Below, piece after piece: positions 52,505 through 64,000 of a DNA stretch of 64,000 bases (the stretch's first letter is position 1; each line of letters opens with the position of its first letter). The translations under genes and the position numbers were made by a program. The notes beneath the pieces are model-generated. The model saw only the letters and a program-made list of their open reading frames with translations, did no database searches and was not told the DNA's origin. The stretch is from Arthrobacter sp. 9AX (GTDB lineage Bacteria > Actinomycetota > Actinomycetes > Actinomycetales > Micrococcaceae). The stretch is taken from NCBI RefSeq assembly GCF_902506095.1, contig NZ_LR733293.1:1567103-1631102 (forward strand), read 5' to 3'.

Positions 52505-52559
52505 TTCCGCTGCCTGAAAAGGCAAGCAACGGTTTTATCCATTTGATGGCGAATGCCGA

Positions 52560-52565
52560 TATAGT
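52560..52565 (+). promoter_or_regulatory. Possible -10 box of the first giant surface-protein gene
   Basis: TATAGT lies 70 bp before the GTG start in the 131-bp gap after the cyclase gene. The best -35-like sequence (TTATCC, 52535-52540) has 19-bp spacing, so the assignment is weak. A small TGCC-tgaaaa-GGCA stem (52511-52524) precedes it. Confidence 0.25.
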
Positions 52566-52635
52566 CGGACTACGCGCCCGGCCGCCGCATGCCGGACACC
52601 GGTTCAGCCGGAGCCTTACTGGGGGAAACAACACC

Positions 52636-55600
52636 GTGAAACTTCGCACACCTGCGCGCTCAAACAGGCCGGGAGCACCCGAATCGCGGCGCCTTATCAG
52701 TGGCGCCGCGTTTGGTGCTGTTGTTGCTGTGGTGGTGGCGGGTGCGGTGTTGTATCCGGGGTTTAAGACCACTGAGGTGGAGTTGAACGACGGTGGTGTG
52801 TGGGTGGTGTCGAAGTCCAAGAACGCGGTCGGCAGGTTGAATTACCCGTCCCGTGTCCTGGACGGTGCGGTGACGCCGGCGTCGACTACGTTTGAGATCC
52901 TGCAGGATGCGGGGGAGGTGTTTGTTGATGATGAGTCTGGTTCGACGTTGAATCAGGTGTCGCCAGCGAATATGCGTTTGGGTGGGGATAAGCGGTTGCC
53001 GGGGGCTGCGGATGTGAGTTTTGGTTCGTCGGTGATTTCGGTGACGGATGCGGCGTCGGGCAAGGTGTGGGCGGTGTCGCCGTCGACGGTGAATGGTTTT
53101 GATGAGGAAGCGTCGGAGCCGGTGTTGGTGGGGTCGGAGGGTACGGTGTCCGCGGTGGGCGCTGATGACCGGATTTATTCGGCGGATCCGAAGTCTGGTG
53201 TGGTGTCGGTGACCGGGGTGGATGCCAATGGTGCGGTGGTGTCGTCGGAGTCTGAGACGTGGTCTGGGTTGAAGGGTTCGGGGGACCTGCAGGTCACGGT
53301 GGTGGGGGACAGGCCTGTCGTCCTGGATGCGGCGGCGGGGAAGTTGTTCCTTCCTGGCGGCAAGCGGCTGCAGTTGGATAATGCGCGGGATGCGAAGTTG
53401 CAGCAGACCGGTCCGGGCAGCGGCTTCGTGGCGATCGCCACGCAGAAGGCGTTGTTGAAGCAGCCGTTGGATGGTGCGACGGCGACGACGGTGACGTTTG
53501 ATGGTGAGGGTGTGCCGGCGGCGCCGGTGCAGTTGGGCGGGTGTGTGCATGCGGCGTGGTCGGGGGCGAACAAGTATGTCCGGGATTGTGTGAATGATGC
53601 TGATGACAAGAATGTGGATGTGCCGAAGGCGAGTGCGTCGCCGTCGTATGTGTTCCGGGTGAACCGGGACCTGGTGGTCCTCAATGATGTGAATTCCGGG
53701 AATGTGTGGCTGGTCAACCAGAACATGCAGCTGGTCAACAACTGGGACGACGTCATCCCGCCGCAGCAGACTTCGGACGACGCCGACAAGGACTCCGCGG
53801 ACGAGGTACGGCAGACCGTCCTGCCGGACCGCACCAAACCCAACAGCGCACCGGTGGCCAACCCGGACACCTTCGGCGTGCGCGCCGGAAAGACCACCAT
53901 CCTGCCTGTGCTGGACAACGACTCCGATCCCGACGGCGACATCCTGACCGTCCGAACGCCGGACCCGCTGCAGTCAGGCGTCGTCTCACCCATCTACGGC
54001 GCCACCGGCTACCAGGTCAGCGTCGGCGCTGACAAGACCGGCACGGAGGGGTTCAAGTACACGGTGGACGACGGCCGGGGCCTCTCCGCATCCGCCGACG
54101 CCACGCTGAACATCATCCCGCCAGGGGAGAACTCCGCCCCGCGGCAGAAGCCCAACCGGAATACCACGCTGGTGGTGCAGGCAGGCAAAGTGGTCAGCCA
54201 GAACATCCTTCCCGACTGGATCGATCCCGACGGCGACGACCTCTTTGTGGTGGGCGCGTCCAGCAGCGACCCCCGCGACCAGGTCAAGGTCCGTCCCGAC
54301 GGGCTGCTCAGCTACCAGGACTCCGGGTCGGAAGCCGCACGCAAGACCGTCACTGTCACCGTTTCGGACGGCCGTGACACCACGGAGGGCAAGGTCACGG
54401 TCGACGTTCGGCCCGCAGGGGCCCTCCCGCCGATTGCCAACGCCGACCACTTGGTGGCCGTCGCCGGGGTGGACACGGTGATCGCCCCGCTGAAGAACGA
54501 TGCGGACCCGCAGGGCGGCGCGCTGCGGCTGGCCCAGGTCACCCCGGACGGCAACTCCACCGCCGTGATGGGCGCGGACCAGCAGACGTTTACGTTCAAC
54601 TCCACCGCCGAGGGCGCCCACTACGTCACCTACCTGGTGACCAACGGACCCGCCAGCGCCCAGCAGCTGGTGCGCGTGGACGTTGTGCCCGGCGGCGGGG
54701 ACGCCGCCCCCGTGGCGGTCCGGGACACCGCCCTGCTGCCCAGCGGTGGCAGCGTGCTGGTGGACGTCCTGGGCAACGACTCGGACCCCTCCGGCGGGGT
54801 GCTGGTGGTCCAGTCGGTGACAGCCGCGGACGGGCTGCCGCTCAGCGTCGCGGTCCTGGACCACTCCGTAGTGCGTATTACCGACCTCCGGGCCCAGGGC
54901 CAGCTCACCGTCCGGTACACCATCTCCAACGGCAAGTCCTCCGCCACCGGCGAGATTTCCGTGCTGGTGGTCCCCGCCCCCGCAAAGCTGCAGGCCCCCC
55001 AGGCCAAACCCGACGAAGCCACCGTCCGCGCCGGGGACGTCGTCACCATCCCCGTGCTGGATAACGACACCGACCCCAACGGCGGGAAGCTCACCCTGGA
55101 ACCTGTGCTGGCACAGGCACCGGACGCCGCGGACGGCCGCATCTTCACCTCGGGGCAATCCGTCCGTTTTATCGCCGGCGACGTGCCCAAAACGGTGTAC
55201 GCCATCTATAAGGTCACCAACGAGTCCGGGCAGTCCGACTCCCAGCAGGTGACCATCCGGATCCGGGCCCGGGAGGACCAACTCAATACCCGGCCCGAAC
55301 CCCGGAACCTGACGGCGCGCGTCGTGGCAGGCATGACAGTCCGCATTCCCGTGCCGTTGGACGGCGTGGACACCGATGGCGATTCCGTCCGGCTGACCGG
55401 CGTGGACAAAGCCCCGGCAATGGGAACGGCGGTGGTCAAGGACGGCTACCTCGAATTCACCGCCGCGGGCAACGCCGCCGGCACCGACACCTTCACCTAC
55501 AGGGCGCGGGACCGCATCGGCGCCGAGAACACGGGCACGGTCATCGTTGGCATCGCACCGCAGGAGACCAACAACCAGAAACCGATCGCCATCGACGACG

Positions 55601-58600
55601 CCGTGGACGTCCGCCCCGGCCGGAAGATCGCCGTCGACGCACTCACCAACGACTCGGACCCGGACGGTGACCCGATCAGCCTGGTATCCAACGGCTTCGA
55701 GGCCCGCCCCGAGCTGGCCGTCGAAGCAGCTGAGGGCGGCAAGGTATTGCTTTCGGCGCCTGCCGCCGCGGGCAACGAAAGCGTCAGCTACAAGATCCAG
55801 GATGACAAAAAAAACCAGGCCGGCGCCGTGATCCGCGTCCGGGTCAGCCCTGACGCCGCGTTGAAGATTCCGCTCGCGAAGGATGACGTGGTCACCCAGG
55901 CGGAGACGCTGGGCAAGTCCGCGGTGGACGTCCCGGTGCTGAAGAACGACGCCGATCCTGACGGCGTCGCTGCAGAGCTGAAGATCAGCCTGCCTGACGG
56001 CAACCCCAACGCCCGCGTGACCGGGGACGGCACCGTGCAGGTCACGCTCGCGCCGGAGGACCAACTGGTGCCCTGCACCGTCACCGACGTTGACGGCCAG
56101 AGCGCCACGGCGGTCATCTGGGTGCCTGGCCAGGGTGAACAGCACCCCACCCTGGCAAGGACCGACGTCGTCGAGGTGATGTCCGGCAAGGAGGTCACGC
56201 TTGACCTGGCCGAATTTGTTCGGGTCCGCGACGGACGAACGCCCCGGATCACCCAGGTGGACAAGGTCCGCGTCCAGGGTGCCGCGCCGGAGAACGTGGT
56301 GGCCGGGAACGGCAACGCCCTGCGCTACGCCGCCCGCACGGACTATGTGGGCCCGGGCTCGGTCACCTTCGAGGTAACCGACGGGACGGGACCGGACGAT
56401 CCCGCCGGCCTCAAGTCCACCCTCAGCATTATCACCAAGGTCATCCCCGACCCCAACGCCAACCATCCGCCCACCTTCAGCGGCGCCACCCTGGACGTTC
56501 CCAAGGGCGAATCCGCCACCTTGGAGCTGGGAAACCTCGCCAAGGACGTTGACTCCGGCGACCAGGAAAAGCTCAGGTTCGAACTGGACGGCGCCCTGCC
56601 CGAGGGCTTCACGGCCACCGTGGACGACGCCACCCTTAAGGTCACCCCCGGATCCGGCAAGGACGCGGGCTGGAAGGGAAGCATCCCGCTCAAAGTCACC
56701 GACGGCCGCTCCGAGCCGGTCCATGCCACCGTTACCGCCACGGTGGTTGCCTCCAGCCGGCCGTTGCCCGTGGCCAACGAGGACGTCCTCGACAAAGCCA
56801 ACGCCGGTGCCTCCGAGACCATCAACGTGCTGGGGAACGACTTCAACCCGTTCCCGGAGACCCCGCTGCGGATCACCTCGGCGACGGTGGAAACCGGCTC
56901 CGCCGCCGGGCAGCCCACCGTCTCGGGCGACTCCATCACCGTCACCCCGGCCAGCGGTTCCAAGGGCGTTATGGTGGTGCGCTACACCGTGATGGACAAG
57001 ACCGGGGACGTCTCGCGGCAGACCGACGGCCGGATCCGCATCACCGTCCGGGACAGGCCGGACGCTCCTTCCGCGCCCACGGCAACGGACGTCCGGAGCC
57101 GGACCGCCGTGCTGAAGTGGACCCCGCCGTCGGACAACGGCGCCGTCATCACCAAGTACACCGTGCGCTCCGGCAACGGCTTCAGCCAGGACTGCCCCAC
57201 CACCACGTGCACGCTGACCGGCCTGACCAACGACGTCGAGTACGTCTTCACCGTCACCGCCACCAATGAAGTCCGTGAATCCGATCCGTCGCCGGTCTCC
57301 AACGAAATCCGGCCGGATGAAAAACCGTCGCCCCCGGAGGCCCCCACCGTCAAGGCCGGTGACAGGAACATGGAGATCACCTGGCCGGCGGCCAGGACCG
57401 AGGGCTCAGCGGTAAAGGCCTACAACCTGGAAATCTCCCCGCCGCCGGCCAGCGGAATTGCCATCAAGAACGGCGTGACCGGACTCAGCTACAACTGGCC
57501 CGGGCTGACCAACGGCGTGCGCTACAAAGTGCGCGCCCAGGCCGTCAACGAGCTCGGCCCGTCCGACTGGGGTCAGTACTCAGCCGAGGACAACCCGGCC
57601 GGCGTCCCGGCTGCTCCGGCGGCCCCCACGTCATCGGTGGCATCTTCGGTAGGTACCTCCAACCAGCTCAAGGTTGACTGGAACGAGCCGAACACCAACG
57701 GCGACGCCATCCGGAACTACTACGTCACCATGAGCGGCGGCGGCGGAGCAGCCCAGACCCAGGTGGTGGCCGGTACCGTCCGGACCGCCAACTTCACCGC
57801 CAACAACTCCGAGGCGTCCTACACCTTCACCGTGCAGGCCGAAAACAAGGCCGGCAAGGGTGCCGTCAGCGCCGCGTCGGCTCCGCGGCGTGCCACAGGC
57901 AAGCTCGGCCAGGTGACGGGCGTGTCCGCAACCGAAGCCGACACCGGAGGTGCCGGGCGTTCCGTGACCATCAACTTCCGGGAGCTCACCGCTGCCGAAC
58001 GGAACGGTTCATCATCCGCCGAGGTCAGTTACACCTACCGCGCCAGCACGGGCCAGACCGGGCCCATCAGGCCCGGGCAAACAGTGGGCGGCTTCGTGAA
58101 CGGCAACAGCACGGCCATCACGGTGGTAGCCAATTCCTCGGTGGCCCCGAGCTCCGACGCCAGTGCTCCGGCAACCGCGAACCCGTACGGATCGCCCGGA
58201 ACGCCTTCGGCCTCGGGACAGAACGGGGCGGAGAACCAGAAAAGCCTCAGCTTCAGCTGGAATTCGCCTTCCACCTCGACCAACGATGTGGCGTACACCC
58301 AGATCAAGATCGACGCCGGGGGCTGGGAGCGGGTGGCCGCCTCCGGCAGCCGCACGGTCAACACCGGTGGTTTCAGTGAACCGCATACGATCCAGGCCCA
58401 GACCGTCAACTCCCGCGGTACGGGTGGCCCGGTGGCATCCGCATCCGCACAATCCGGCGCGCAGAAGACGCGGTGGACCACGCGGCTGAATTCCGGCATG
58501 TACCGCAGCTGCACAGACCTGCCCGGCGCCACCTCCTACGACAACAGCCAGCCGGGGAATTTCACCTGCGACGGACAGGGCGGCACTAACCGCCCCTGGA

Positions 58601-58797
58601 TGGGCGCTGCCGATGTCTTCGACATCATGTGCTGGAAGCCGCACGGCACGTATTACAGCGGAGACGGCCAGTGGTACTACATCATGCGTGGCTCACCCAA
58701 CCAGACACGCTGGATCGATTCGAGGCACACCACGATCGGTACGCCCGGACAGAGCGGCGTCCCGCTGTGCACCTTCCCGGTAGGAGCCACGCCATAG
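52636..58797 (+). CDS. Giant membrane-anchored surface protein: propeller-like head, 11 Ig/cadherin-like repeats, FnIII repeats
   Basis: The 2,053-residue protein starts with a basic tail and a signal anchor (about 21-40). Residues 45-375 form a WVV/VWAV/VWLV-repeat domain that looks propeller-like. Eleven Ig-like repeats follow (to about 1470), most opening PxAxxD...V(L/D)xNDxDPDG, then about five fibronectin-III repeats (about 1475-1940) and a C-terminal module with four cysteines (GMYRSCTDL to VPLCTFP). The role is probably in adhesion or cell-surface architecture. GTG 52636 follows GGGGGAAA. The head is encoded by the duplicated tract 52710-53753, whose G/T-rich codons (GTG, TTG, GGT, GAT) differ sharply from the C-ending codons after it. 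A paralogue follows after 156 bp. Confidence 0.82.
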   Translation: MKLRTPARSNRPGAPESRRLISGAAFGAVVAVVVAGAVLYPGFKTTEVELNDGGVWVVSKSKNAVGRLNYPSRVLDGAVTPASTTFEILQDAGEVFVDDESGSTLNQVSPANMRLGGDKRLPGAADVSFGSSVISVTDAASGKVWAVSPSTVNGFDEEASEPVLVGSEGTVSAVGADDRIYSADPKSGVVSVTGVDANGAVVSSESETWSGLKGSGDLQVTVVGDRPVVLDAAAGKLFLPGGKRLQLDNARDAKLQQTGPGSGFVAIATQKALLKQPLDGATATTVTFDGEGVPAAPVQLGGCVHAAWSGANKYVRDCVNDADDKNVDVPKASASPSYVFRVNRDLVVLNDVNSGNVWLVNQNMQLVNNWDDVIPPQQTSDDADKDSADEVRQTVLPDRTKPNSAPVANPDTFGVRAGKTTILPVLDNDSDPDGDILTVRTPDPLQSGVVSPIYGATGYQVSVGADKTGTEGFKYTVDDGRGLSASADATLNIIPPGENSAPRQKPNRNTTLVVQAGKVVSQNILPDWIDPDGDDLFVVGASSSDPRDQVKVRPDGLLSYQDSGSEAARKTVTVTVSDGRDTTEGKVTVDVRPAGALPPIANADHLVAVAGVDTVIAPLKNDADPQGGALRLAQVTPDGNSTAVMGADQQTFTFNSTAEGAHYVTYLVTNGPASAQQLVRVDVVPGGGDAAPVAVRDTALLPSGGSVLVDVLGNDSDPSGGVLVVQSVTAADGLPLSVAVLDHSVVRITDLRAQGQLTVRYTISNGKSSATGEISVLVVPAPAKLQAPQAKPDEATVRAGDVVTIPVLDNDTDPNGGKLTLEPVLAQAPDAADGRIFTSGQSVRFIAGDVPKTVYAIYKVTNESGQSDSQQVTIRIRAREDQLNTRPEPRNLTARVVAGMTVRIPVPLDGVDTDGDSVRLTGVDKAPAMGTAVVKDGYLEFTAAGNAAGTDTFTYRARDRIGAENTGTVIVGIAPQETNNQKPIAIDDAVDVRPGRKIAVDALTNDSDPDGDPISLVSNGFEARPELAVEAAEGGKVLLSAPAAAGNESVSYKIQDDKKNQAGAVIRVRVSPDAALKIPLAKDDVVTQAETLGKSAVDVPVLKNDADPDGVAAELKISLPDGNPNARVTGDGTVQVTLAPEDQLVPCTVTDVDGQSATAVIWVPGQGEQHPTLARTDVVEVMSGKEVTLDLAEFVRVRDGRTPRITQVDKVRVQGAAPENVVAGNGNALRYAARTDYVGPGSVTFEVTDGTGPDDPAGLKSTLSIITKVIPDPNANHPPTFSGATLDVPKGESATLELGNLAKDVDSGDQEKLRFELDGALPEGFTATVDDATLKVTPGSGKDAGWKGSIPLKVTDGRSEPVHATVTATVVASSRPLPVANEDVLDKANAGASETINVLGNDFNPFPETPLRITSATVETGSAAGQPTVSGDSITVTPASGSKGVMVVRYTVMDKTGDVSRQTDGRIRITVRDRPDAPSAPTATDVRSRTAVLKWTPPSDNGAVITKYTVRSGNGFSQDCPTTTCTLTGLTNDVEYVFTVTATNEVRESDPSPVSNEIRPDEKPSPPEAPTVKAGDRNMEITWPAARTEGSAVKAYNLEISPPPASGIAIKNGVTGLSYNWPGLTNGVRYKVRAQAVNELGPSDWGQYSAEDNPAGVPAAPAAPTSSVASSVGTSNQLKVDWNEPNTNGDAIRNYYVTMSGGGGAAQTQVVAGTVRTANFTANNSEASYTFTVQAENKAGKGAVSAASAPRRATGKLGQVTGVSATEADTGGAGRSVTINFRELTAAERNGSSSAEVSYTYRASTGQTGPIRPGQTVGGFVNGNSTAITVVANSSVAPSSDASAPATANPYGSPGTPSASGQNGAENQKSLSFSWNSPSTSTNDVAYTQIKIDAGGWERVAASGSRTVNTGGFSEPHTIQAQTVNSRGTGGPVASASAQSGAQKTRWTTRLNSGMYRSCTDLPGATSYDNSQPGNFTCDGQGGTNRPWMGAADVFDIMCWKPHGTYYSGDGQWYYIMRGSPNQTRWIDSRHTTIGTPGQSGVPLCTFPVGATP
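52710..53753 (+). repeat. 1,044-bp near-identical direct repeat, copy 1
   Basis: Aligned with 59019-60062 at a constant offset of 6,309 bp, it shows one difference by eye (C52791 versus T59100, silent Asp codon). It covers the membrane anchor and propeller-like head (residues about 26-372). Codon use inside is G/T-ending and shifts to C-ending at about 53640-53760. Outside the tract the paralogues are clearly diverged. Confidence 0.95.
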
Positions 58798-58953
58798 CCG
58801 GCGTCGGGCGGGGCAGGGCCCGGTGCAGGGGAGGGCTCCCCATCGCGGGGCCTGTAGGGGTTCGGTAGGCTTGCGCCGGGGAAAAGAGAGTCTCGTGCCA
58901 GTACCGCGAACGGGCTGCCATACGGCCACACAAACTGAGGGAAAAATAACGCT

Positions 58954-61900
58954 GTGACAAGTCTGCTGGGGAAGCTTGGGCTGAAGACGCGACATAAGAA
59001 GCTCGTTAGCGCCACTGTGTTTGGTGCTGTTGTTGCTGTGGTGGTGGCGGGTGCGGTGTTGTATCCGGGGTTTAAGACCACTGAGGTGGAGTTGAACGAT
59101 GGTGGTGTGTGGGTGGTGTCGAAGTCCAAGAACGCGGTCGGCAGGTTGAATTACCCGTCCCGTGTCCTGGACGGTGCGGTGACGCCGGCGTCGACTACGT
59201 TTGAGATCCTGCAGGATGCGGGGGAGGTGTTTGTTGATGATGAGTCTGGTTCGACGTTGAATCAGGTGTCGCCAGCGAATATGCGTTTGGGTGGGGATAA
59301 GCGGTTGCCGGGGGCTGCGGATGTGAGTTTTGGTTCGTCGGTGATTTCGGTGACGGATGCGGCGTCGGGCAAGGTGTGGGCGGTGTCGCCGTCGACGGTG
59401 AATGGTTTTGATGAGGAAGCGTCGGAGCCGGTGTTGGTGGGGTCGGAGGGTACGGTGTCCGCGGTGGGCGCTGATGACCGGATTTATTCGGCGGATCCGA
59501 AGTCTGGTGTGGTGTCGGTGACCGGGGTGGATGCCAATGGTGCGGTGGTGTCGTCGGAGTCTGAGACGTGGTCTGGGTTGAAGGGTTCGGGGGACCTGCA
59601 GGTCACGGTGGTGGGGGACAGGCCTGTCGTCCTGGATGCGGCGGCGGGGAAGTTGTTCCTTCCTGGCGGCAAGCGGCTGCAGTTGGATAATGCGCGGGAT
59701 GCGAAGTTGCAGCAGACCGGTCCGGGCAGCGGCTTCGTGGCGATCGCCACGCAGAAGGCGTTGTTGAAGCAGCCGTTGGATGGTGCGACGGCGACGACGG
59801 TGACGTTTGATGGTGAGGGTGTGCCGGCGGCGCCGGTGCAGTTGGGCGGGTGTGTGCATGCGGCGTGGTCGGGGGCGAACAAGTATGTCCGGGATTGTGT
59901 GAATGATGCTGATGACAAGAATGTGGATGTGCCGAAGGCGAGTGCGTCGCCGTCGTATGTGTTCCGGGTGAACCGGGACCTGGTGGTCCTCAATGATGTG
60001 AATTCCGGGAATGTGTGGCTGGTCAACCAGAACATGCAGCTGGTCAACAACTGGGACGACGTTGTTCCACCCAAGAACGAATCCGACGAGCAGGACCAGG
60101 AATCGGCGGACAACAACACCATCAACGTCCTGCCGGACCGCACCAAACCCAACCGTCCGCCCGAAACCAAACCCGATGCCGTCGGTGTCCGCCCTGGCCG
60201 GACCACCATCCTCAGCGTCCTGGACAACGACTCCGACCCCGACGGCGACGTGCTCACCGCAGCAGTGACTGACACCGGCCCCAAGGCCGGCACCCTGGAG
60301 AACATCTACGGGGGCACCGCGTTCCAGGTCTCCGTCCCGGCCGGCGCGAAACCCGGGACGGAGACGTTCAGCTACAACGCCTCGGATGGCCGCGGCCTCT
60401 CCGCCGCCGGCCAGGTGACCCTTAGCGTGGTGGGTGCGGAGGAGAACAAGCCGCCGCAGTTCAAGCGCGGCGACAACACCACCATGCTGGTGGAACAGGG
60501 CAAAGCCGTCAGCCAGAACATCCTCACCGACTGGATTGACCCCGACGGCGACGACCTGGTACTCCTTGACGCCAAGGCCGACAACGAGCAGGACCAGGTC
60601 AAGGTCCGGCGCGACGGCCTGCTCACCTTCCAGGACTCCGGTGCCACCGCCGGCAAAAAGAATGTCGAAGTCACCATCTGGGACGGCCGGGCCACGGTCA
60701 CCGGGAAAGTGGTGGTCAACGTCCAGCCGCCGGGAGCCCTGGCGCCGGTAGTCAACGCCGACCACGTCACCGCCGTGGTGGGCCAGGACCTCGTCATCTC
60801 CCCGCTGAAGAACGACGTCGATCCCAACGGAGGAGCCCTCCGCCTGGCGCAGGTGGAAGCCAACGGCCCCGCAGAACTGGGCCCTGTCACCGACGGTGGC
60901 ACCTTTACGTTCCGCAGCACCACTCCCGGCCCCGTCTACCTCACCTACATTGCCAGTAACGGCCCGCAAAGCAGCCAGGGCCTCATCCGGGTGGACGTGG
61001 AATCCGGCGACGACACCGGCAACCCCGTCGCTGTCCACGACGTTGCTCTGATGCCCACGGGCGGCAGCGTGCTGGTGGACCCGCTGGCTAACGACTCCGA
61101 CCCGTCCGGCGGGGTCCTGGTGCTGCAGTCCGTCAAGCTGCCCGAAAACTCCACCGCGTCCGTCAGCGTGATCAACCACGCCGTCCTGCGCATTACGGAC
61201 GTCCTGGGGGCCAAGGACCCCATCCTTTTCGAATACACCATGTCGAACGGGACGAAGTCAGCCACCGGCAGCGTCTCGGTGGTCCCGGTCCCGGCCCCCG
61301 CCGTCGTGGAAGCACCCCAGCCCAAACCCGACGAAGTGAACGTCCGGGTCAACGACGTCGTCACCATCCCGGTGCTCGACAACGACACCCACCCGCAAGG
61401 CCAGGAACTGACTGTGGACCCCGTCCTGCCGCAGGCTGTGGACCCGGCGGACGGGAAGAGCTTCGTCTCGGAAAACACGCTGCGGTTCATCGCCGGCAGC
61501 CAGCCCAAGACGGTCCGGGCCATCTACAACGCGGTGGACCCGCAGGGCCAGAAAAGCGCCGCCGCCGTGACCATCCACATCCTGCCGCTGGAGGGCGCGG
61601 AGAACTCACGCCCGCAGCCGCGAAACCTCACGGCCCGGGTGGTGGCCGCCGATACCGTCCGGATTCCCGTGCCGCTGGATGGCATCGACTCCGACGGCGA
61701 CTCCGTCCAACTGACCGGCATCGACAGCACCCCGGCCATGGGCACAGCGACGGTGGGCAGCAACTTCATCGACTTCGCTGCCGCCGGCGACGGCGCAGGC
61801 ACCGACACGTTCCGCTACAAGGTGGTGGACCGGCAGGGCGCCGTCAACACCGGCACGGTCACGGTGGGCGTGGCCCCGCGCGGTGAAGTCAACCAAAAGC

Positions 61901-64000
61901 CCACTCCCGTGGACGATGAGGTGCGGGTCCGCCCGGGACGCCAGATCGCCGTCGACGCCACCGGTAACGACACCGACCCGGACGGGGACCTGATCCGCAT
62001 CCTGACCGACGGCATCGACGCTGATCCGGAACTTCAGGCCACGGTGAGCAAGGCAAGCGGAAGGATCATCCTGCTGGCCCCGGGCGAAGCCGGAACCGTC
62101 AACGTGCGCTACACCATCGCCGATGACCGGGACGCCTCGGCGCAGGCTGCCATTCGTGTGGTCGTAGACAACGAGGTGCCCTTGAAGGCGCCCATTGCCC
62201 GGGATGACAGGGTGACGTCCGCCCAAACCCTGGGCAAGACCGCCGTGGACGTCCCCGTCCTGAAAAACGACGAGGACCCCGACGGTGTAGGCGAAAACCT
62301 CAAAATCAGCACCGAAGCCACCACCGCCCGGCCGGGCCCCGAAGGCAACATGGTGGTGGACCTGACGGAGCAGCCGCAGCTCATTCCGTACACCGTGGAG
62401 GACGTGGACGGCCAGCAGTCGACGGCGGTCATCTGGGTCCCGGGCCTGGGACAACAGGTGCCCACCCTGGCCAAGGACGAAGTCGTGGAGGTCATCGCGG
62501 GCCAGTCCGTGGACGTTGACCTGGACGAGTGGGTGAAAGTCCGCGAGGGCTGGTCGCCGCGTCTGACCCAGGCAGACCGGATCAAACTGATCGGCGCCGA
62601 CGGCGGCGATCCCGTGACCCGGGACGGCACCGGCCTCAAGTACACGGCAGGCGCCGACTACGTGGGCCCCGGCTCGCTGACCTTCGAGGTGACGGACGGA
62701 ACAGGCCCTGACGATGCGGCCGGCCTGAAGTCCACCCTCAGCATCCGCACCAAGGTACTGCCCGATCCCAACAAGAACAACGCGCCCGAGCTCCTCGGCG
62801 CCAACGTGGACGTTCCGAAGGGCGACTCCGCCAGCACCGACCTGGCGAAGCTGACCACGGACCCGGACCGGGACGACGTCGAAAAAATGAAATACGAGCT
62901 GGTGGGAGGTTCGCCGGCCGGCTTCAACGCCAGCATCGACGGCAAGTCCCTGAAGGTCTCGGCAGCCGATTCCACTGGTACCGGAACCACCGCCGCCGTC
63001 CAGGTCAAGGCCCGGGACCCACGCGGTCTTGAGGCCACCGCCACCTACCAGTTGGCGGTCACCGCCTCGAACCGCCCCAAACCTGTGGCCAACGACGACG
63101 TGGAGGACAACGCCGCCGCCGGCAAGCCCGTCACGGTCAACGTCCTGGCCAACGACGCCAACCCCTTCCCGGAAACGGCGCTGAAGATTATTGCAGCGAA
63201 CACTGAAACGGGCAGCGGCAACGTGGAGGTCAGCGGAGATTCCGTGACGGTGACACCTGCACCTGGATTTACCGGAACCATGGTGGTGTCCTACACCGTG
63301 GCGGACAAGACGGGGGATTCATCCCGGCAGGCAACCGCCCGCATCCGGCTCACCGTCAAGGACAAACCGCAGGCGCCCACCACCCCGCAGGCCCAGAGCG
63401 TGGGGGACCGGACAGCGCTGCTGAACTGGACTGCGCCCGCGGACCGCGGCTCACCCATCACCAAATACACCGTGTACGGCGAGGGCGGGTTCCAGCAGGA
63501 CTGCCCCGCCAACACCTGCACCCTCAACGGGCTGGTCAACAACACCAAGTACCACTTCCAGGTCACGGCCACCAACGAGTTCGGCGAGTCTGACCGGTCG
63601 CCCGCCTCCGCAGAGGTGCGTCCGGACGTCAAGCCCGATACCCCGCTGGCTCCGTCGCTGAAGTTCGGCGACAAGGAGCTGTCCGTTAACTGGACGGCCC
63701 CGGCCAGCAAGGGGTCGCCGGTGAAGTCCTACGACCTGGAAATCTCACCGCCGCCGCCCGGGCAGAACGCCCAGATCCAGAACCTGACCGCTGTCAGCTA
63801 CGTCTGGAAGGGCCTGCAGAACGGCGTCTCGTACAAGGTCCGGGTCCTGGCCCGCAACGAGGCCAAGGAACCCTCGGAGTGGAGCCCGTACTCGGCCGCC
63901 GAGGTTCCGGCGGGTGTCCCGGCAACGCCGACCGCGCCCACCGCGGCGCAGGCCGGTTCGCTGGGTTCGCAAAGCCAGCTGAAGGTGAGTTGGGCTGCGC
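58954..64000 (+). CDS. Second giant surface protein, paralogue of the first (partial, continues beyond window)
   Basis: The frame is open from GTG 58954 to the window end (1,682 codons). The first 22 residues are unique; anchor and propeller-like head (about 23-370) are identical in protein to the first copy, and then 11 Ig-like repeats appear in the same order as in the neighbour but much diverged (for example PETKPDAVGVRPGRTTIL versus PVANPDTFGVRAGKTTIL). Three fibronectin-III repeats are reached before the window ends. GAGGGA (58937-58942) lies 11 bp before the GTG. The 156-bp gap after the first gene shows no clear terminator, so they may be co-transcribed. Its C-terminal end cannot be seen. 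Confidence 0.82.
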   Translation, partial: MTSLLGKLGLKTRHKKLVSATVFGAVVAVVVAGAVLYPGFKTTEVELNDGGVWVVSKSKNAVGRLNYPSRVLDGAVTPASTTFEILQDAGEVFVDDESGSTLNQVSPANMRLGGDKRLPGAADVSFGSSVISVTDAASGKVWAVSPSTVNGFDEEASEPVLVGSEGTVSAVGADDRIYSADPKSGVVSVTGVDANGAVVSSESETWSGLKGSGDLQVTVVGDRPVVLDAAAGKLFLPGGKRLQLDNARDAKLQQTGPGSGFVAIATQKALLKQPLDGATATTVTFDGEGVPAAPVQLGGCVHAAWSGANKYVRDCVNDADDKNVDVPKASASPSYVFRVNRDLVVLNDVNSGNVWLVNQNMQLVNNWDDVVPPKNESDEQDQESADNNTINVLPDRTKPNRPPETKPDAVGVRPGRTTILSVLDNDSDPDGDVLTAAVTDTGPKAGTLENIYGGTAFQVSVPAGAKPGTETFSYNASDGRGLSAAGQVTLSVVGAEENKPPQFKRGDNTTMLVEQGKAVSQNILTDWIDPDGDDLVLLDAKADNEQDQVKVRRDGLLTFQDSGATAGKKNVEVTIWDGRATVTGKVVVNVQPPGALAPVVNADHVTAVVGQDLVISPLKNDVDPNGGALRLAQVEANGPAELGPVTDGGTFTFRSTTPGPVYLTYIASNGPQSSQGLIRVDVESGDDTGNPVAVHDVALMPTGGSVLVDPLANDSDPSGGVLVLQSVKLPENSTASVSVINHAVLRITDVLGAKDPILFEYTMSNGTKSATGSVSVVPVPAPAVVEAPQPKPDEVNVRVNDVVTIPVLDNDTHPQGQELTVDPVLPQAVDPADGKSFVSENTLRFIAGSQPKTVRAIYNAVDPQGQKSAAAVTIHILPLEGAENSRPQPRNLTARVVAADTVRIPVPLDGIDSDGDSVQLTGIDSTPAMGTATVGSNFIDFAAAGDGAGTDTFRYKVVDRQGAVNTGTVTVGVAPRGEVNQKPTPVDDEVRVRPGRQIAVDATGNDTDPDGDLIRILTDGIDADPELQATVSKASGRIILLAPGEAGTVNVRYTIADDRDASAQAAIRVVVDNEVPLKAPIARDDRVTSAQTLGKTAVDVPVLKNDEDPDGVGENLKISTEATTARPGPEGNMVVDLTEQPQLIPYTVEDVDGQQSTAVIWVPGLGQQVPTLAKDEVVEVIAGQSVDVDLDEWVKVREGWSPRLTQADRIKLIGADGGDPVTRDGTGLKYTAGADYVGPGSLTFEVTDGTGPDDAAGLKSTLSIRTKVLPDPNKNNAPELLGANVDVPKGDSASTDLAKLTTDPDRDDVEKMKYELVGGSPAGFNASIDGKSLKVSAADSTGTGTTAAVQVKARDPRGLEATATYQLAVTASNRPKPVANDDVEDNAAAGKPVTVNVLANDANPFPETALKIIAANTETGSGNVEVSGDSVTVTPAPGFTGTMVVSYTVADKTGDSSRQATARIRLTVKDKPQAPTTPQAQSVGDRTALLNWTAPADRGSPITKYTVYGEGGFQQDCPANTCTLNGLVNNTKYHFQVTATNEFGESDRSPASAEVRPDVKPDTPLAPSLKFGDKELSVNWTAPASKGSPVKSYDLEISPPPPGQNAQIQNLTAVSYVWKGLQNGVSYKVRVLARNEAKEPSEWSPYSAAEVPAGVPATPTAPTAAQAGSLGSQSQLKVSWAA
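59019..60062 (+). repeat. 1,044-bp near-identical direct repeat, copy 2
   Basis: Partner of 52710-53753 with one silent difference. The two copies are in direct orientation and in the same reading phase (offset 6,309 = 3 x 2,103), so a crossover would delete 6,309 bp and leave one intact hybrid gene. Confidence 0.95.

Follow-up and report, generated by a model that had tools for sequence, protein, structure and literature searches.

The 64,000-nt stretch of Arthrobacter sp. 9AX analysed here (contig NZ_LR733293.1, positions 1,567,103 to 1,631,102 of the forward strand; hereafter the window) carries two giant genes in tandem, gene 1 and gene 2, both predicted to encode surface proteins in which a domain of about 320 residues, the head, is followed by a long stalk (S1 and S2, respectively). 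Our main finding is that recurrent gene conversion in all probability maintains the likeness of the heads of these two old genes, gene 2 probably being the donor in most cases, while the stalks have diverged to about 62% identity. Based on sequence comparisons within and between genomes, we put the probability of this reading at roughly 0.88.

In the window, positions 52710-53753 (copy 1) and 59019-60062 (copy 2), both on the forward strand, agree over 1,044 positions with a single mismatch (52791 C, 59100 T). The mismatch is silent, and all 347 encoded residues are identical. This direct comparison confirms the near-identity with one silent change reported in a preliminary description of the window, as well as the diverged stalks it had placed behind the tract. 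S1 and S2 are 61.9% identical in nucleotides and 52.5% in protein. At the four-fold sites that can be compared, they disagree in half of the cases (298 of 570), versus 0 of 211 in the head. The ends of the tract had been described as abrupt. At the 5' edge identity is gone within about one 60-base step; at the 3' edge an ungapped comparison falls to about 70% for 200 bp and then reaches background. The tract had been said to encode anchor and head; it does encode the head, but the anchor only in part, as it begins inside the hydrophobic segment and the basic N-terminal tail is not common to the two genes. A search of the same genome with the tract returned these two places only, and all direct repeats of at least 60 bp listed in the window (24-base seed) belong to the gene pair.

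To compare the pair across relatives, loci (labelled L; genomes, G) were drawn from named genomes and from further genomes of the same genus, the latter comprising some of the matches listed and 20 additional genomes. The closest named relatives of the window at this locus are Arthrobacter and Pseudarthrobacter. Removal of 17 duplicates from 149 loci with a head match of more than 300 residues left 132, namely 69 tandem S1-S2 pairs, 56 loci with S2 alone, 5 with S1 alone and 2 not fully typed. The 69 pairs do not include L020/L158, L147, L143, whose first gene is broken, or loci truncated by the end of a contig; L021, L037 and L055, whose contigs end at the head, and L047 are counted among the 56 S2-only loci. 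L031 and L060 were retained among the pairs though one gene is broken, so their stalk figures are weak. The rooted trees were built from 28 of the 69 pairs together with 9 single loci and 5 outgroup rows, and an S2 tree of 120 rows was used in place of a species tree.

Heads are homogenised in 48 of the 69 non-redundant pairs, with identities of 77.6-100% (at least 99% in 14 pairs and at least 95% in 37). In the other 21 pairs the heads are 65-70% identical and their frames are open. Stalk identity is 56-67% in every pair except L031, with its broken genes, and four-fold divergence between S1 and S2 is 0.41-0.68, two pairs with broken genes excepted. A further same-genus pair outside all counts, L197, has a head identity of 100% and a stalk identity of 55%. 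The preliminary description had proposed aligning the locus in related strains and asking whether the two heads are always more alike within a genome than between genomes. The likeness is present in the 48 pairs, but in the 21 others the heads are about as diverged as the stalks, a situation that the preliminary description had named as refuting its reading. On the S2 tree these 21 all fall within a single group (support 100) that is Paenarthrobacter-like and free of any homogenised pair, and our claim is therefore limited to the other lineages.

Silent sites and trees both speak for conversion. Within genomes, the median four-fold divergence of homogenised heads is 0.031, against 0.535 for their stalks (48 pairs). 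Between genomes, gene-2 heads differ at 0.381 and stalks at 0.445 of such sites (45 genomes, 990 comparisons), and the head is therefore not codon-frozen. The stalk tree places all gene-1 stalks in one clade apart from the gene-2 stalks (support 100*). In the head trees, the two copies of a genome mostly pair where the pair is homogenised, and a single clade for all gene-1 heads is rejected (approximately unbiased test, p 2.35e-10). In 37 of the 48 homogenised pairs, and in none of the 21 others, the gene-1 head has its closest counterpart in the gene-2 head beside it. The 3' edge of the tract lies at residue 346-352 in 47 of 48 homogenised pairs (at 322 in L032), and the 5' edge of the 41 tracts of at least 900 bp lies between residues -43 and 26. 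In three partly converted heads (L043, L144 and L146), it is mainly the 3' part that is fresh. Thus the usual marks of concerted evolution are found here, with within-genome likeness in part of the genomes, homogenised silent sites and a duplication older than the likeness. From these sequence patterns, concerted evolution appears to be confined to one domain and is best explained by gene conversion, which the preliminary description, alongside a recent copy-in, had likewise favored over simple duplication.

With respect to the direction of conversion, the rooted head tree, which holds 18 homogenised pairs and 10 others, has the gene-1 heads of the non-homogenised group diverging first, while the sampled homogenised heads of both genes join the gene-2 heads (99*). 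All 48 homogenised gene-1 heads are nearer to the gene-2 than to the gene-1 heads of the non-homogenised group, albeit by a small margin (mean 0.682 vs 0.638). Where conversion reached further 5', gene 1 carries the N-terminal tail of gene 2 (L023, L058 and also the broken L143). In L142/L058 and L151/L023, each pair of labels denoting the same locus, the gene-2 leader is present as well, and these loci have the longest homogenised tracts (1,185 and 1,124 bp). Profiles of the 5' regions trained on pairs were correct in cross-validation for 63 of 67 gene-1 regions and for all 67 gene-2 regions. Because of the placement in the head tree, the transfers of the N-terminal tail and the 67 of 67 gene-2 typing, gene 2 is likely the usual donor and gene 1 the recipient.

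The same profiles were applied to 60 of 62 single loci, and 11 of these 60 have a gene-1 5' region. Seven of them (L017, L035, L038, L104, L108, L145 and L109) are fusions, consisting of the gene-1 5' region, a head and the gene-2 stalk; the upstream region of gene 2 is absent, and genome-wide searches for S1 in the seven genomes, repeated for L017, L035 and L038, found none. The swap is plain in six fusions when set against a related pair and weaker in L109, whose 5' region is 53% and 49% identical to the two genes. In L145, for example, the 5' region is 95% identical to that of gene 1 and 46% to that of gene 2, and the corresponding values for the stalk are 65% and 96-97%. L104 lies in a one-contig genome (G102). 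On the S2 tree the fusions require seven changes, six of them forced by starred branches. The change they record is a deletion of about 6.3 kb in one direction. Recombination through the head does join the start of gene 1 to the stalk of gene 2, as the preliminary description had anticipated, while nothing in these species-level genomes shows the possible switch that it raised, the products being one-way deletions in different species. Its emphasis on in-phase spacing also proved misplaced. A spacing divisible by three, which occurs in 13 of 48 homogenised pairs and thus about as often as by chance, is not needed for an in-frame fusion and was discarded as a relevant feature.

Several candidates were set aside. 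L047 is not a fusion, as its S1 lies on another contig, and L147 and L020, although among the 11 loci with a gene-1 5' region, are neither fusions nor single genes but pairs whose second head is damaged, a frame break or Ns interrupting it. L011 and L034, considered as excised circles, have no exact terminal overlap of 15-300 bases and are explained by an assembly loop. L110 (G159) is a single gene whose 5' region and stalk are those of gene 1, and its genome has no match to the gene-2 stalk; gene 2 may have been lost or joined further 3'. Gene 1 has also been lost by other routes, as in L118, where a gene-1 stub precedes an intact gene 2, and 44 rows of the S2 tree have gene 2 alone. Finally, in L009 a third, partial head (residues 1-97; L009:9340-9624) stands between the two genes and may be a scar left by unequal exchange.

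Some observations weigh against domain-limited conversion as we describe it. In 11 of 48 homogenised pairs the gene-1 head is nearest to a head of another genome; these are near relatives (L006 and L122; L015, L120 and L121), weakly converted pairs (L009, L036, L126, L133 and L134) and L060, a misaligned row. Conversion is therefore intermittent rather than constant. Head silent sites are 14% less diverged than stalk sites between genomes, which amounts to a mild constraint, and the S2 tree substitutes for a species tree. The head tree is rooted by means of long outgroup branches, one of which falls on the wrong side, so that the direction is less sure than conversion itself. In addition, tandem pairs in other genera of the order lack the domain limit, with those at L198 and L200-L204 diverging about evenly. 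Another pair, L199 (G398, from another family of the order), has patches of 93-100% identity scattered along much of its length, as would be expected if its conversion were not domain-limited. These pairs being even or patchy, tandem arrangement alone does not yield the pattern.

We weighed four other explanations. That a recent duplication made the second gene, with the stalk alone changing fast since, would suit the near-identical heads of the window, but S1 and S2 are two clades across genomes with a four-fold divergence of 0.41-0.68, and silent sites cannot change so much in one part and not at all in the adjoining part; we give this account almost no credence. Strong protein or codon selection on the heads is just as hard to credit. 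Gene-2 head silent sites are slightly less diverged between genomes than stalk sites (0.381 vs 0.445), yet heads differ at 38% of their four-fold sites between genomes and at a median of 3% within homogenised ones, and 21 pairs keep open frames with heads only 65-70% identical.

An assembly artefact, in which a single head was placed twice, had been named as something to exclude. Short-read contigs do break or loop at heads (L011, L021, L034, L037, L055 and L041), and the apparent fusion of L047 has its S1 on a separate contig. Moreover, the window's genome is nearly all one contig (4.415 Mb of 4.43 Mb) and has a single 16S match (G000:C5:998849-1000374), so that the assembly may have collapsed longer repeats. 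Set against this are the one base that distinguishes the two copies, the 15 of 48 homogenised pairs in one-contig genomes, and the spread of head identity from 77.6 to 100%, a variation that a copying error would not give. We therefore consider an artefact very improbable. In favor of a dedicated reversible switch using the heads as recombination sites are the direct repeats of the window and the fusion product carried by relatives. The deletion, however, removes S1, and all observed cases distinguish one species from another, which leaves this explanation improbable, if somewhat less so than the preceding three.

The pattern could arise as follows if, as we favor, conversion maintains the heads. 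Homologous recombination, presumably of the RecA type, would refresh the head when it proceeds as conversion. Proceeding as a crossover or slippage, the same recombination would delete about 6.3 kb and bring the gene-2 stalk behind the gene-1 5' region. Conversion would halt at the domain edge where flanks of about 60% identity are too unlike for pairing, and the head would stay convertible because it is converted. In the 21 non-homogenised pairs the head, too, would have escaped conversion. Selection for a common membrane-proximal part may keep conversion going. We also entertain, as an unlikely though not negligible proposal, that the head is a selected recombination handle, with gene 2 serving both as a template that matches the propeller of gene 1 to one assembly machine and as a reserve stalk that deletion brings under the control of gene 1.

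Both genes share one plan, with a short basic tail, a hydrophobic segment, the head of about 320 residues and the stalk. All features lie on the forward strand. The gene-1 5' region (52505-52709) runs from the stop of a cyclase-like gene through the predicted GTG start at 52636 and the N-terminal tail, and is not common to gene 2. Gene 1 (52636-58797; open frame from 52099) encodes 2053 aa. Copy 1 of the tract covers most of its hydrophobic segment and the head, and S1 (53754-58797) consists of Ig-like and fn3 domains and a C-terminal part. The intergenic region with the gene-2 N-terminal tail (58798-59018) is the portion missing from the fusion form. Gene 2 (58954-65061; 2035 aa) and S2, which begins at 60063, both run on beyond the end of the window at 64000. 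In the stalks Pfam recognises only Ig-like and fn3 domains, with 11 Big_9 and 3 fn3 stretches in gene 1 and 9 Big_9 and 2 fn3 stretches in the portion of gene 2 within the window. The shared domain stands directly behind the membrane segment and so would lie close to the membrane; the term 'head' is used purely as a label.

The head of the window genome matched no Pfam family, Pfam otherwise giving scattered weak matches, and its profile matched no solved chain by sequence. A structural model built from 46 sequences has a mean predicted local distance difference test (pLDDT) score of 88.7, with low values for residues 1-26. Its fold matches are beta-propellers, including an archaeal surface-layer YVTN propeller, BamB and cd1 nitrite reductase. 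The head is thus a predicted beta-propeller, the matches indicating a propeller and not a function. The pair would form two membrane-anchored fibres at the cell surface, alike in their membrane-proximal propeller and different in their stalks.

Downstream on the same strand lie genes for a MoxR ATPase, a DUF58 protein, a transglutaminase, an RDD/FHA protein, a PP2C phosphatase, an FHA protein, a kinase (74718-76400 in window-based coordinates), an unnamed gene and an FtsK-type gene. The first three of these genes may serve the two fibres. The last two, outside the window at 76351-81626 in the same coordinates (L179), encode a 278-aa protein that has no Pfam match and a protein of 1480 aa with FHA and FtsK/SpoIIIE domains, which resembles type VII secretion ATPases. 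The head occurs widely in the order, in at least 131 of the 248 genomes sampled, and only rarely across the phylum, where 5 of 149 sampled genomes have it, two of them of the same genus. Searches for S2 in 15 head-less genomes of the genus gave only short weak matches, nearly all in the fn3 part. A third, more distant paralogue, with a head about 43-50% identical, occurs elsewhere in G020, G013, G002, G036, G210, G107, G245 and G253 (e.g. L192, L193 and L195), and a second MoxR gene adjoins L194 and L195. A 28-nt element (CCGGCGTCTCTATGGGGGAGTGGCGGAA) lies upstream of the gene, about 168-173 nt before the head, and is exact in 14 of 196 loci (L106, L111, L143, L151 and others); Rfam gave no match at the gathering score in the seven loci tried.

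We compared this locus with known systems. The PFNA cluster of bifidobacteria likewise has a giant fn3-type gene followed by genes for a MoxR-type ATPase, a DUF58 protein and a transglutaminase on one strand, with PP2C, FHA and kinase genes near (PMC8430577, PMC6803598). This order is found here, but with two fn3-type genes and with the kinase gene downstream rather than first, and we therefore call the cluster PFNA-like without filing it as a member. One account of PFNA reports neither signs of recombination nor orthologues outside bifidobacteria (PMC6803598). The babA and babB genes of Helicobacter pylori are paralogous surface-protein genes with near-identical ends, a different middle and conversion chimeras, but their loci are not tandem cluster genes of this kind, whereas here one 5'-end domain is shared within a 6-kb tandem unit (PMC4552749). 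In Salmonella, main and orphan rhs genes fuse by recombination through a shared region, so that the start of the upstream gene becomes attached to a C-terminal part from further downstream (PMC3967940). Fusion through a shared N-terminal region is found here in seven genomes and works like Rhs displacement. The Salmonella toxin fragment is without a start (PMC3967940), whereas here both genes are full-length; no toxin or immunity gene was recognised, and we do not file the pair as a member.

Tandem esaG and tipC immunity genes also recombine through conserved blocks and lose copies, but they are small firmicute genes present in several copies (PMC9484751). A survey of long-lasting concerted evolution in prokaryotes describes 26 genes with within-genome silent-site likeness of paralogues over long times; it treats genes, whereas here homogenisation ends inside a gene at a domain edge (PMC6053082). 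Conversion also makes one region of the primate immune receptors SIGLEC11 and SIGLEC16 alike, a parallel that implies no kinship (PMC5701461). Gene conversion between surface paralogues, fusion through a shared region, recombination of tandem paralogues and long-lasting concerted evolution are thus already known. We found no paper on this phenomenon in Arthrobacter or Micrococcaceae in a search that left most subscription journals outside. As far as the literature was searched, what is new is that homogenisation is confined, in dozens of genomes, to a single domain of a 6-kb gene, that a natural group lacks it and that head-joined fusions recur.

The domain limit and the repeated natural fusions will be striking to the specialist, while the mechanism itself is familiar and the function putative. 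Trees or short-read assemblies that rest on these heads will mislead. With dozens of genomes and a built-in non-homogenised group, the locus offers a natural series for the reach, frequency and direction of conversion and for its stop at a domain edge, and the recurring fusions re-pair parts of giant surface proteins in nature. Were the head indeed a selected handle, lineages would repeatedly swap a two-fibre for a one-fibre surface, and giant surface proteins would evolve in a modular, domain-wise manner.

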